Shown one piece after another: positions 4,379 through 10,108 of a DNA stretch of 64,000 nt. A model generated the notes under the pieces. It had not been told where the DNA came from, did no database searches, and saw nothing but the letters and a program-made list of their open reading frames with translations. The first letter of the stretch is position 1. Every line of letters begins with the position of its first letter. Source of the DNA: Rhodospirillaceae bacterium (GTDB taxonomy: Bacteria; Pseudomonadota; Alphaproteobacteria; Dongiales; Dongiaceae); NCBI GenBank assembly GCA_008012315.1, contig SSEL01000001.1, positions 62,001 to 126,000 of the forward strand, written 5' to 3'. The translations under genes and the position numbers were made by a program.

Positions 4379-6472
4379 TTACACGATGCCCAGGGCCGTT
4401 TTACGGTTTGCGGCAGCGGCGCGCAGGATGCGATCGGCGATCATGCCGATCAAAGCCAGGCTGAGGCCGGCGATCACCCCCATGCCGGGATCGTTCTTGC
4501 CGAGGCCGATATAAATCTGCTGGCCCAGGCCGTCGGTGCCGACCAGCGAGGCGATCACCAGCATGCCCATGGCGAACAGGATCGTCTGGTTGATGCCAAG
4601 GAGGATTTCCGGAAAGGCATTGGGCAGTTTCACCTGCCAGAGAATCTGCGACCTGGTGCAGCCCATCGCCGTCGCCGCTTCGATCTGCGCGGCCGGAACC
4701 TGGCGCAGGCCGTGCTCGGTATAACGGATCGCCGGCACCACGGCGTAGAGGATGATGGCCAGCAAGCCGGTGAAATCGCCGACACCGAAGAACATCAGCA
4801 CCGGGATCAGGAAGACGAATTGCGGAATCGTCTGCAGCGTATCGTTGACCTGCCGCAGGACCGCCGATGCCCCATCCGATGCAGCGCCCCAGATACCAAG
4901 CGCCACGCCGATGACGATCGACAGGGTGACGGCACTGGCGCAGAGATAGACGGAGATCATCGCCTGCTGCCATTGCCCGGCGAGCAGAATAAAGACCTGG
5001 CTAACCAGCGCGAAGATCGCGACCGGCCAGCCCCCGCAGCGATAGGCGCAGGCGGTAACGAGGATGACGACCGCCAGCCAGGGCATGCCGGTCGTGCCGA
5101 CATAGAGGAAGCAGCCGATGACGAAGATCGCCGTGCCCGCGGTCATCGAGCGATAACGGGCAGCTGCCAGCGCAGCCGCCGCGAGCAGGGTCCAATAGGC
5201 GGCGATGACCGGCGGGGTCAGCGCGAAGCCCCAGCTGAACGGCGTGACGACGCGTTCCAGCCCGATCTTGACGGGCAGGATGGCGAAATACAGCAGGCTT
5301 GCCTTCAACCCATTAAGGAAAACGGCATAGGTCGAGGTCACATAGGCAAGACCGGCATTGATGGATTCGGACAAACCCATCAGTCGGCCCTGCGGCGTGA
5401 TCGACAGCCGGGTCATGAGCAAGCTGCAGATCGCACCCAGCATCACGGCACCGATTGCCGCGAAGAGGAAATCGCGGCGGCTGAGGCGATGCGCCTGGAC
5501 GGCCCCACCCTGGGGACCACCACCTTGTGCGGCATCGCTTTGCCCGGCCAGCCCCAGGGTGATGCGGTCGAGCGACATCGCCAGCAAGGCGATCACCAGG
5601 CCGGATAAGATGCTGTCACCGAAATTCGCCCGCCTGATATTCGACAGGACCTCCCAGCCGATATCGTTGAAGCCGCCGATGATCGCCGAAATGATGATCA
5701 TCGCGAAAGCCGCCATGGTGGTCTGGTTGATGCCGAGCTTCAGCTGCGGCATGGCCGAGGGCACGTCGACCCACCAGAATTGCTGGCCTGGCGCGCAGCC
5801 GCAGATCAGGCCGGCCTCGCGTATGTCGGACGGTACGCGTTGCAGGCCCAGCAGCGTGTTCCGCACCATCGGCGGCGCGGCGAAAACCGCGCTCGCAATC
5901 AAGCCGACCACCGGGCCGAAGCCGAAGAGCAGCAGGATGGGAATGAGATAGGCGAAAGTCGGGATGGTCTGCATCAGGTCGAGAACCGGATCCAGGATGC
6001 TGCGTACCGTGAAGTTCCGGTAAGCCCAGACGCCGAAACCAAAGCCGATCACCGCCGCCAGCAGGATCGCAATAGACACCAGGGAAAGGGTATTCATGCT
6101 TTGCGTCCAGTAGCCGGCAACCCAGATGTAAAGCAATGTGAAGAGGGTCAGCATCAGGCTGCGCCAACCGGCGGCCTGCCACGCGATCAGGGCGGATAAA
6201 AGGATGAAGACCGGCGCCGGTACCCAAGTGAGAAGCTGCTGCAACAGATCGAGCGGCCAGGTCAGGACGAGGCTGACGACCCGGAAGAACGGCTTGGAGA
6301 CATCGACGAAAGCCGCCATCGCCGCGCCGGTCCAGTGGGATAGGGGCATGACCCAGTCCGCCGGATAGGCAGCCATCCATGGCACCAGGGAACGCGCCAG
6401 GATGGCAAGGATAACCGCCGCGCCCAGCAGCAGAAACGGCGCCGGGTTTTCCGCCATCCCGTGCCGCTTCAA
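4379..6472 (-). CDS. Glycine betaine/proline-type ABC permease, two ProW-like domains fused in tandem
   Basis: 697 aa; two BPD_transp_1 repeats (QTIPTFAYLIP...GINQTTMAAFAMIIIS and QTIPQFVFLIP...GINQTILFAMGMLVIAS); start TTG at 6472 or ATG at 6457. Confidence 0.9.
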   Translation of the reverse strand: MKRHGMAENPAPFLLLGAAVILAILARSLVPWMAAYPADWVMPLSHWTGAAMAAFVDVSKPFFRVVSLVLTWPLDLLQQLLTWVPAPVFILLSALIAWQAAGWRSLMLTLFTLLYIWVAGYWTQSMNTLSLVSIAILLAAVIGFGFGVWAYRNFTVRSILDPVLDLMQTIPTFAYLIPILLLFGFGPVVGLIASAVFAAPPMVRNTLLGLQRVPSDIREAGLICGCAPGQQFWWVDVPSAMPQLKLGINQTTMAAFAMIIISAIIGGFNDIGWEVLSNIRRANFGDSILSGLVIALLAMSLDRITLGLAGQSDAAQGGGPQGGAVQAHRLSRRDFLFAAIGAVMLGAICSLLMTRLSITPQGRLMGLSESINAGLAYVTSTYAVFLNGLKASLLYFAILPVKIGLERVVTPFSWGFALTPPVIAAYWTLLAAAALAAARYRSMTAGTAIFVIGCFLYVGTTGMPWLAVVILVTACAYRCGGWPVAIFALVSQVFILLAGQWQQAMISVYLCASAVTLSIVIGVALGIWGAASDGASAVLRQVNDTLQTIPQFVFLIPVLMFFGVGDFTGLLAIILYAVVPAIRYTEHGLRQVPAAQIEAATAMGCTRSQILWQVKLPNAFPEILLGINQTILFAMGMLVIASLVGTDGLGQQIYIGLGKNDPGMGVIAGLSLALIGMIADRILRAAAANRKTALGIV

Positions 6473-7557
6473 GAGACGACCTTCATATGGCCGCCCGGGA
6501 GCTGGCCGCGACCTGAGGGCGTCCCGCCTCGCCGTCCCAGTATTTGCAGGATGCGGTTGAGCGTGACGATGCCAACCGGCCTGCCATCGGTATCGGCCAC
6601 GGTCGCGGCACTGAAATCATTGCCGAGGCTTTCCATGACCTGCTCGAGATTGGCGCTTGCCGCGACCACCGGCCGGGCATTCGGATGATCGCCCGGGGAC
6701 GGTAACGGCTCCAGGATATCAGCGGCATATTGCACCCGCGCGATCGGCACATCGGCGACGAACTGCGCGACATAGTCATCGGCCGGATTGAGGACGATCT
6801 CCTGCGGCGTCCCGACCTGCACGATGAAGCCGTCTTTCATGATGGCAATGCGGTGAGCGAGGCGGACCGCTTCCAGCACGTCATGGGTGACGAAGACCAC
6901 CGTCTTGCGCAGCTGTCGCTGCAGGCGCAGGAACTCATCCTGCAATTGCCGGCGGATCAGCGGATCGAGCGCGCTGAACGGTTCGTCGAGGAACCATAAT
7001 TCCGGCTGCACCGCCAAGGAGCGGGCGATGCCAACGCGCTGCTGCTGGCCGCCGGACAATTGGCGCGGATAGGCGTCTTCGCGCCCGTCGAGTCCGACCA
7101 GGCGAATCATCTCGTCGGCCCGGGCATGGCGCTTCGCCAAGGCGACGCCCTGCGTCTTCAACGGAAACGCGACGTTCTCGCGCACCGTCAAATGCGGCAA
7201 CAGGCCGAAATTCTGGAACACCATGCCGATGCGATGCCGGCGGATCTGGATCAGTTCCTTCGGCGAGGCCGCCAGCAGGTCCTGTCCGTCGAGCAGGATC
7301 TCGCCGGCTGTCGCATCGATCAGCCGCGACAGGCAGCGAATGACGGTCGACTTGCCCGAACCGGACAGCCCCATGATGATGAAGATCTCGCCTTCCTCGA
7401 CCTCGAAGGAGACATCGGCGGCGGCGGGAATATGCCGTTCGTCGCGCAACCGCCGGGCAAGCGCCGGCGGATCGATCCGATAGCCCGCCGTGTCGAAATA
7501 GACTCCCGGCCGGCGGCCATAGACTTTCCAGAGATTGCGGCAGGCGAGCTTGATCAT
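6469..7557 (-). CDS. proV: Glycine betaine/proline-type ABC transporter ATP-binding protein (ProV-like)
   Basis: 362 aa; Walker A GLSGSGKST, signature LSGGQQQRVGIAR, Walker B LWFLDEPFSALD, C-terminal CBS-like region. Confidence 0.9.
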   Translation of the reverse strand: MIKLACRNLWKVYGRRPGVYFDTAGYRIDPPALARRLRDERHIPAAADVSFEVEEGEIFIIMGLSGSGKSTVIRCLSRLIDATAGEILLDGQDLLAASPKELIQIRRHRIGMVFQNFGLLPHLTVRENVAFPLKTQGVALAKRHARADEMIRLVGLDGREDAYPRQLSGGQQQRVGIARSLAVQPELWFLDEPFSALDPLIRRQLQDEFLRLQRQLRKTVVFVTHDVLEAVRLAHRIAIMKDGFIVQVGTPQEIVLNPADDYVAQFVADVPIARVQYAADILEPLPSPGDHPNARPVVAASANLEQVMESLGNDFSAATVADTDGRPVGIVTLNRILQILGRRGGTPSGRGQLPGGHMKVVS

Positions 7558-7569
7558 CCGTCGATGGAC

Positions 7570-7968
7570 CTAGAATCGGTAATACTGCGTCTCACGCGGC
7601 GCATAGATCATGTAATACTGCTTGAAATGATCCAGGATATGCCAAGTGGTGGTCTGGTCGCGGGGGATGAAGAACAGATCGCCGGGCGCGAAGATATCCG
7701 CGCGCCCCGCCGCATCGACCAGCTTCAGCCGGCCTTCGATCACGATGCCGAGCTCATCATAAGGAAAGCTGATCGTTTCTCGGAACGGCGTGCATTCCCA
7801 GAAACCGACCTGCACATTGCGTTCGTCATTGTTATAAAAGAAATGGCCCTGCTCATCGGCCCGCCCTTCATCGATCCATTCGGGCTTGATGAAATCGGTT
7901 TTGACCAGCGGCAAGGTCCGATGCGCCGAAGGCTGCAACCGGATGAAACCCTTCAACGCATCGGACAT
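7570..7968 (-). CDS. Cupin domain protein
   Basis: MSDALKGF...; 'FPYDELGIVIEGRLKLVDAAGRADIFAPGDLFFIPRDQTTTWHI' cupin motifs; ORF-track start 8070 would overlap proX. Confidence 0.75.
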   Translation of the reverse strand: MSDALKGFIRLQPSAHRTLPLVKTDFIKPEWIDEGRADEQGHFFYNNDERNVQVGFWECTPFRETISFPYDELGIVIEGRLKLVDAAGRADIFAPGDLFFIPRDQTTTWHILDHFKQYYMIYAPRETQYYRF

Positions 7969-7999: not shown

Positions 8000-8992
8000 C
8001 TACTTCTGCGCGGCATCGATCCAGGGTTGCCAGACCGCCTGATGCTCGGCAATCCAGCGATCCGCGACATCTTCCACCTTCTGGCCTTTGCTTTCGATCT
8101 CGTAGGAAAGTTCCATGTCTTCCTTGTTGCCGATCTTGAAAGCCTGGATGAGCTTATAGGCTGCGGGCCACTTTTCCTTCATGCCCGGCCAGACCACCTT
8201 GACGATATCGCCGGCGGCCTCGCCGCAATCATAGGTCTTGTCCGAATTGGGACCCCATTTCGGATCGCTGTAGCAAGGATCGGCATATTTCGGCAGGTCG
8301 ACGACCTTGAGGTCGAGCTCGACGAAGATCGGATGCGGCCACCAGAAATAGACCAGGGCCGGCTTGCCGCTTTTCACCGAGGAGCGCAGCTCGGACAGCA
8401 TGGCGCCCTCGCTGCCACCGGAGACCGGCTTGAAGTCGATCCCCAGCGATGCAAGCCGGTCGGCGGTATGCATGTTGCCCCATTCAGGCGGAAAATCGAC
8501 CAGGCGGCCCTGCGGCATGGTCTCCGGCGTGGCGAAGGCATCGGGGCATTTCTGCAGCGCCTTGTAATCGGGCAGGCCGGGGCACAGCTTCTCGGCAAAG
8601 GCAGGATAGACCCAGCCGCCGCCGCCTTCGAGACCGGTGCTGCCCAGGCTTTCCAGCTTGCCGCTCTGGAGCATCGGCTGGAACCCTTCGCCGACATTGA
8701 CTTCCCAGATTTCCATGGAAGCGGTGAGTTCGCCGGCCGAAAGCGGCGTGAGCTGCGCGGTATAGCCCGCCGTCACATAATCGACGTTATAGCCCATCTT
8801 CTTCAGCAGCCGGCCGGTGATCTGGGTCAGCAGGTTCTGGCTCGTCCACTCGTTCATCGCCAGCTTGATGGGATCCGTCGATTCCGGAATGGTGGCGGCC
8901 GCAGCCTGTCCGGCCTGCAGCGCCAGCGACGCCGATCCCGCAATCAGAACGCAACTCAGCCACCGCCGCATGAAAGCTGCTGGATTTTTCAT
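8000..8992 (-). CDS. proX: Glycine betaine/choline-type ABC substrate-binding protein (ProX/OpuAC-like)
   Basis: 330 aa; signal peptide; 'KLAMNEWTSQNLLTQITGRLLKKMGYNVDYV' OpuAC pattern; same operon as permease and ATPase. Confidence 0.88.
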   Translation of the reverse strand: MKNPAAFMRRWLSCVLIAGSASLALQAGQAAAATIPESTDPIKLAMNEWTSQNLLTQITGRLLKKMGYNVDYVTAGYTAQLTPLSAGELTASMEIWEVNVGEGFQPMLQSGKLESLGSTGLEGGGGWVYPAFAEKLCPGLPDYKALQKCPDAFATPETMPQGRLVDFPPEWGNMHTADRLASLGIDFKPVSGGSEGAMLSELRSSVKSGKPALVYFWWPHPIFVELDLKVVDLPKYADPCYSDPKWGPNSDKTYDCGEAAGDIVKVVWPGMKEKWPAAYKLIQAFKIGNKEDMELSYEIESKGQKVEDVADRWIAEHQAVWQPWIDAAQK

Positions 8993-9158: not shown

Positions 9159-9178
9159 ATGGACCCTTTAGGGCCCAT
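9159..9178. promoter_or_regulatory. Palindrome ATGGACCC-TTTA-GGGCCCAT, candidate LuxR-type operator 1
   Basis: 8-bp arms with 1 mismatch, 4-nt spacer; between divergent proX and luxR-type gene. Confidence 0.7.
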
Positions 9179-9237
9179 GCCGTAGCCTGCCAAAAAACCG
9201 CATAAGCGGCGCGTGTAGCCAGTTCGCGGGGGGACGG

Positions 9238-10071
9238 ATGGCCGGGAAGGACGAGCGGGGTCTATATCCGTTGCTGACGCAACTCGGCATGGTTGCCGAG
9301 CGCGCCGGCGATCCGGTTTTCTACCGCGATCTGCTGATGGTGCTGGGATCGCATCTGCGCGCCGATCTCGCCATGGTGATGCGCTATTCCCGCCATCATG
9401 CGCCGGAATATCTCATTCACGATGGACTTTTGCCCGGCCATATGGAGTTTTATCTGCGCGGCCTCTATCGCGTCGATCCGATCTATCGGCTGTGCCGCGA
9501 TGAAAATGGGCGCGGCGTGAAAGATCTGACCGAAGTCAGCACGCCGGCCGAGCGCGCGGGCGACTATTTCAATATTTTCCTGCGCCTGACCGGCATGGCG
9601 GACGATCTCGCCTTGCTTTTCCCGATCGGAGGCGACGCCTCGATCGGTCTCGTCTACGAACGCAAGTCGCCGTTTCTCAAAACTGAGCTTGCCGCGATGC
9701 GGGGATTGTTCCCGTTGCTGGAAAGCCTGCACCGCCTGCACCAGAAGCTGAGCGAGGCGCAGCTGCGGGCGACCATCCGGCAGATCGGCGATATCGACGA
9801 AATGACCCGCAGCCCTGCCAAGCCTGGCCTGCCGCCGATCGATTACAAAACCGCTTTGGACGGATTCCTGCGTGATAAGCTGACCCCGCGCGAGCGTGAC
9901 ATCGTGCGGTTGATTCTGGTCGGGTATCCCAATGCCAAGATCGCCGAGCGGCTGGAGCTCAGCCTGAACACGGTGAAGAATCACAAGAAGCGGATGTACC
10001 TCAAGCTCGACATCACCACCGAACGCGAGCTCTTCCTCAATTTCGTCAATTTCCTGTTCCAGGACATCTGA
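9238..10071 (+). CDS. LuxR-family transcriptional regulator (C-terminal GerE HTH)
   Basis: 277 aa; 'KLTPRERDIVRLILVGYPNAKIAERLELSLNTVKNHKKRMYLKLDITTERELFLNF'. Confidence 0.9.
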   Translation: MAGKDERGLYPLLTQLGMVAERAGDPVFYRDLLMVLGSHLRADLAMVMRYSRHHAPEYLIHDGLLPGHMEFYLRGLYRVDPIYRLCRDENGRGVKDLTEVSTPAERAGDYFNIFLRLTGMADDLALLFPIGGDASIGLVYERKSPFLKTELAAMRGLFPLLESLHRLHQKLSEAQLRATIRQIGDIDEMTRSPAKPGLPPIDYKTALDGFLRDKLTPRERDIVRLILVGYPNAKIAERLELSLNTVKNHKKRMYLKLDITTERELFLNFVNFLFQDI

Positions 10072-10082
10072 TGTGGCGAGAT

Positions 10083-10108
10083 CCAATGGACCCGATAGGG
10101 TCCATTGG
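10083..10108. promoter_or_regulatory. Perfect palindrome CCAATGGACCC-GATA-GGGTCCATTGG, candidate LuxR-type operator 2
   Basis: 11-bp perfect arms, 4-nt spacer; shares ATGGACCC-N4-GGGnCCAT core with 9159-9178; 78 bp upstream of SnoaL gene. Confidence 0.8.

Follow-up and report, generated by a model that had tools for sequence, protein, structure and literature searches.

What does a pair of matching palindromes do when it brackets a regulator gene? In the window analyzed here (the whole stretch of 64,000 nucleotides), a LuxR-type gene is flanked by two such palindromes, one in each of its adjoining intergenic gaps (Table 1). The original prediction likened them to classical lux boxes and placed the divergent uptake genes, the regulator gene, and the downstream enzyme genes in one regulon. 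Based on the sequence comparisons described below, the palindromes are very probably landing sites for the LuxR-type regulator encoded between them, and related bacteria have conserved them.

The palindromes, the regulator, and the neighboring genes

Both palindromes were found at the positions originally given, and their sequences do match. The core of palindrome 2 (10086-10105; ATGGACCCGATAGGGTCCAT) is a perfect dyad whose pairing continues outward to 10083-10108, and it matches perfectly the search pattern ATGGACCC-N4-GGGTCCAT (16 scored positions). Palindrome 1 has one mismatch to this pattern and one broken arm pair. The center of palindrome 1 lies 69 bp 5′ of the luxR ATG and ~176 bp 5′ of the proX ATG, and that of palindrome 2 lies 90 bp 5′ of the SnoaL ATG. 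With up to three mismatches, the pattern has three matches in the window; shuffling predicts 0.25, and a count of three was not reached in any of 100 shuffled windows. When the intergenic region around each palindrome was dinucleotide-shuffled, the palindrome also proved rarer than 1 in 2000. The genome scan that had been proposed found that the motif is not abundant in the host genome (5.72 Mb), with matches at only three places when up to two mismatches were allowed (reversed-pattern control: one). The third match (C17:129973) was rejected as a chance coding match inside an ORF for a pyruvate dehydrogenase E1-alpha type protein (name read from the translation), such that palindromes 1 and 2 are the two intergenic matches of the genome. 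A near-identical dyad upstream of luxR, the lack of a T-run after palindrome 2 (the sequence from 10109 is CTTTGCCCCGG), and conservation of the sequence itself beyond mere pairing make a role of palindrome 2 as a terminator or RNA hairpin for the luxR transcript very improbable, despite its being a G+C-containing perfect dyad shortly 3′ of the luxR stop codon.

Table 1. Features of the locus, with positions in the window.
Feature	Position	Strand	Details
Double-length ProW-like permease	4379..6472	-	Two PF00528 stretches; TIGR03416 397 bits (cut-off 363)
ProV-like ATPase	6469..7557	-	TIGR01186
EutQ-like cupin protein	7570..7968	-	PF05899 6e-11; listed ORF to 8070, scanned part 7573-7968
ProX-like substrate-binding protein	8000..8992	-	PF04069 OpuAC 5e-41; divergent from luxR
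Palindrome 1	9159..9178	.	ATGGACCCTTTAGGGCCCAT; proX-luxR divergent gap
LuxR-type regulator, 277 aa	9238..10071	+	N-terminal domain related to 5xhx (VqsR); C-terminal GerE
Palindrome 2	10083..10108	.	CCAATGGACCCGATAGGGTCCATTGG; luxR-SnoaL gap
SnoaL-like protein, 137 aa	10186..10599	+	PF12680 3.5e-12; first gene of downstream operon
SnoaL-GcvT-type aminomethyltransferase fusion, up to 506 aa	10596..12116	+	PF12680 6e-15; PF01571 4e-34; PF08669 1e-7

The regulator belongs to the LuxR/GerE family, with a GerE helix-turn-helix at residues 214-265 (PF00196 7e-14; 51.6 bits, curated cut-off 23.5). Its N-terminal domain, which was considered unassignable in the original prediction, can now be placed: a profile of six regulator relatives matched PDB 5xhx, the nearest solved relative, over the N-terminal domain (1.5e-14, ~157 positions). 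VqsR of Pseudomonas aeruginosa has its place in virulence and quorum-sensing control. It is also a LuxR-type regulator with a related N-terminal domain, whereas the window regulator adjoins uptake and demethylase genes. The identity of 5xhx as VqsR follows its citation in PMC9144697. A single-sequence structure model of the regulator was poor (mean pLDDT 44). Between the N-terminal and DNA-binding domains, a stretch of ~65-75 residues that is present in the G013 and G014 proteins, the paralogs, and the G320 protein is absent from the window regulator.

Lux boxes (LuxR) and tra boxes (TraR) are dyads of 18-20 bp that are bound by GerE-domain dimers. The proposed likeness of the palindromes to lux boxes holds for length and dyad form only; the sequence of the arms differs. 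The 20-bp dyad length and the GerE domain would suit a quorum-sensing LuxR protein with acyl-homoserine lactones as ligands and lux boxes as targets, and two of six family members match the autoinducer-binding model PF03472 very weakly (0.019 at best). However, this model has no match in the window protein (E<=1), the dyad sequence is not that of a lux box, and the adjoining genes are catabolic and transport genes, which together make such a role highly improbable, slightly more so than a terminator at palindrome 2. The regulator is probably not a quorum-sensing one. A search of the genome for a LuxI-type synthase gave no match, but neither did any control genome.

Among the neighboring genes, the ProV-like ATPase scores above the cut-off of the betaine/proline/choline ATPase model (TIGR01186, 339.9 bits; cut-off 326.6). 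The SnoaL-GcvT fusion is likely a folate-dependent demethylase. Its top named model is the DMSP demethylase (NF009133) at 267.4 bits, under the 410-bit cut-off and thus outside DmdA as defined by this model. It shares the GcvT-type folate domain with DmdA and the TMAO demethylase Tdm (267 and 172 bits, respectively), but neither score reaches its curated cut-off (410 and 1100 bits, respectively), and the window enzyme is fused to a SnoaL domain. Nothing direct on this fusion was found in the papers searched. The fusion together with a separate SnoaL protein occurs in only a few of the searched genomes.

Conservation of the palindromes with the regulator

Among the 17 genomes of the order that were searched, only two besides the host have an ortholog of the regulator (G013 and G014, which represent another genus of the same family as the host). 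Two scans of genome contigs, one using the single regulator sequence and one using an alignment, yielded no confirmed relatives. Overall, the orthologs are 59% (G013) and 55% (G014) identical to the window regulator, rising to 72-73% within the DNA-binding part, and in both genomes the regulator gene is followed by the SnoaL and SnoaL-GcvT genes (enzymes ~70% identical). As the original prediction would have it, the palindromes are kept at both positions in these loci. Counterparts of palindrome 1 lie upstream of luxR (L013:9844 and L014:8426), and those of palindrome 2 (L013:8566 and L014:9597) are both centered 68 bp before the ATG. The two flanking gaps score 14/16 and 14/16 in G013 and 13/16 and 13/16 in G014. 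Taking the window and both orthologous loci together, all six gaps contain a site that no more than 1 of 2000 dinucleotide shuffles could equal, and the three species share an unchanged half-site GGGTCCATTGGC ahead of the SnoaL gene. Across the G013 genome, the two regulator-flanking sites are the only matches with up to two mismatches. This conservation represents few lineages, because the only two orthologous loci found belong to one genus. Genes for ProXVW homologs, an EamA-type transporter, a BetI-like TetR protein, and a pirin-like protein also occur near both loci, and the G013 locus has a creatininase-like gene as well.

Orthologs of the SnoaL-like protein and the SnoaL-GcvT fusion are found together in G013, G014, G351, G397, and G403, and the last three were the only genomes with the fusion in wider searches beyond the order. 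In these three genomes, which belong to another family, the same gene pair lies beside a divergent TetR gene, and the palindrome is absent from the TetR-side gaps (7/16). G351 (L036) and G397 (L040) have a different dyad there (AAGGTAAGCATTAACTTACCTT), as well as peptide-type ABC transporter genes. The palindromes are thus tied to the regulator, being kept in orthologous loci, rare in the genome, and absent beside the TetR-linked operon. Could they be operators of another DNA-binding protein that controls the region? The BetI-like TetR gene downstream of the fusion gene in G013 and G014 could regulate there. However, the ORF list of the window has no BetI-like gene beside the operon, three species have the LuxR gene bracketed by the sites, and related regulators have similar dyads beside their own genes (see below). 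We therefore regard control by another protein as unlikely, and binding by the LuxR-type regulator is the reading that we follow here.

Control of uptake has only partial support. A gene other than proX lies beyond the first palindrome in both G013 and G014, and at proX itself, several kb from the regulator, the best scores are 9/16 and 10/16, no better than shuffles. Consequently, the first site stays with luxR, and a role in uptake in the window is suggested by position. Control of proX by the regulator is plausible in the window, given that distant family members have sites before uptake operons, but it is not conserved. The proposal of a single regulon thus fits for autoregulation and the SnoaL/GcvT genes and fits only in part for uptake.

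Dyads in the wider regulator family

Family regulators adjoin other operons for nitrogen compounds or small molecules (names at unannotated loci were read from translations). These include a creatinase-like M24 protein (G320), a trimethylamine-monooxygenase-like flavoprotein (G296), an amidase with an Xaa-Pro peptidase (Salipiger and Paracoccus), polyamine-type transporters with an amidase (Neorhizobium, Shinella, and Rhizobium), and acetone-carboxylase-type genes (Sinorhizobium medicae and Shinella). Paralogs of the regulator in G013 and G014 lie beside a Rieske-type oxygenase, and these Rieske-side loci have their own dyad (L015:8122 and L016:7216; ATGGTTCCCCGGGGCACCAT in L016). A dyad related to ATGGTGAC-N4-GTCACCAT is found in many family loci and is perfect in Salipiger, and the consensus of the distant relatives is ATrGTGAC-N4-GTCACyAT.

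This family consensus was set from the loci inspected first, Salipiger, G320, and G296 among them, before it was tried on eleven loci that were retrieved afterward. Matches of at least 12/16 were found in 5 of the 11 regulator upstream regions, whereas the remaining segments of these loci gave 15 of 451 (Fisher p 3.5e-5). The five positive regions are not independent because four of them come from similar amidase loci. Among the annotated new loci, 9 of 13 matches at this threshold are intergenic, whereas intergenic DNA accounts for 11.5% of bases (p 1.6e-6); when one of the similar amidase loci was kept, the ratio was 6 of 9 (p 1.2e-4). The layout of the window recurs in Shinella and Rhizobium (L064 and L066), with one site in the divergent gap between an uptake operon and the regulator gene and another in the regulator-amidase gap. 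L063, L068, and L069 have this two-site layout with weaker, partial matches. In Mesorhizobium (L061), a 15/16 site precedes an SDR-ProXVW uptake operon, and two sites lie between two enzyme genes, a flavoprotein-like gene and an SDR gene, where 15/16 is also reached. No clear site was found upstream of the regulator in L060, L065, L067, L053, and L057. When palindromicity was tested with sequence ignored, most of the distant family members showed no signal, and the argument for these sites is carried by the sequence-specific tests. The general family consensus has matches with up to two mismatches at 12 places in the host genome; with these matches and with some members lacking a site, it is not specific alone and serves as a guide rather than proof.

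The window regulator and its two orthologs form a strongly supported group in the tree and have the recognition helix NTVKNHKKR or NTIKNHKKR. Helix forms such as GTVKNHR or GTVRNHK predominate among relatives whose half-sites are TGAC or TGCC. The operator may have changed together with the recognition helix.

A predicted regulon for a betaine-like compound

Similar to LuxR-type operators, the window sites are inverted repeats of ~20 bp near the regulator gene and the candidate target promoters, and they are conserved with the regulator. A regulator dimer would bind each 20-bp dyad via its GerE domains, probably in response to a small metabolite sensed by the N-terminal domain. From the second site, the regulator would most likely activate the SnoaL/SnoaL-GcvT operon, with the half-site GGGTCCATTGGC located at or beside the -35 region. 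The dyad centers lie 68-90 bp before the target start codons, which leaves room for the dyad over the promoter -35 region, and overlap with -35 is the usual position for an activator of the LuxR type. At the first site, the regulator would control its own gene and, in the host genome, perhaps also the divergent ProXVW-type uptake operon. Such a regulon would allow the cell to take up and demethylate a quaternary, methylated, betaine-like compound. Taken as a whole, this scheme of dyad binding, control of its own gene, activation of the enzyme operon, and perhaps control of uptake appears likely, and the predicted regulon is solid as a prediction from sequence.

DmfR of Paracoccus aminophilus, described in PMC4543880 as a LuxR-family activator of dimethylformamide genes, resembles in its description what is proposed for the window regulator, namely, a LuxR-family activator for a methylated nitrogen compound. 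The regulators of the trimethylamine pathway in Ruegeria are of the AraC (TmaR) and GntR (TmoR) types (PMC13390433), not LuxR.

More broadly, a wide non-quorum-sensing LuxR subfamily with VqsR-like N-terminal domains may govern how methylated and other nitrogen compounds are taken up and broken down, via paired 20-bp dyads that share one general form, with the half-sites of the window regulator and its two orthologs shifted from TGAC to ACCC along with a recognition helix of NTVKNHKKR rather than GTVKNHR-like form. We put this forward tentatively, at somewhat below even chances. The papers searched contain no direct description of this regulator type, and for this family our results provide a specific, testable predicted operator and its likely targets. 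The predicted operator ties the regulator to a rare SnoaL-GcvT enzyme that resembles demethylases of betaine-like compounds. Finally, the same two-site layout in distant relatives suggests a route to regulon prediction for many uncharacterized alphaproteobacterial LuxR-type proteins.
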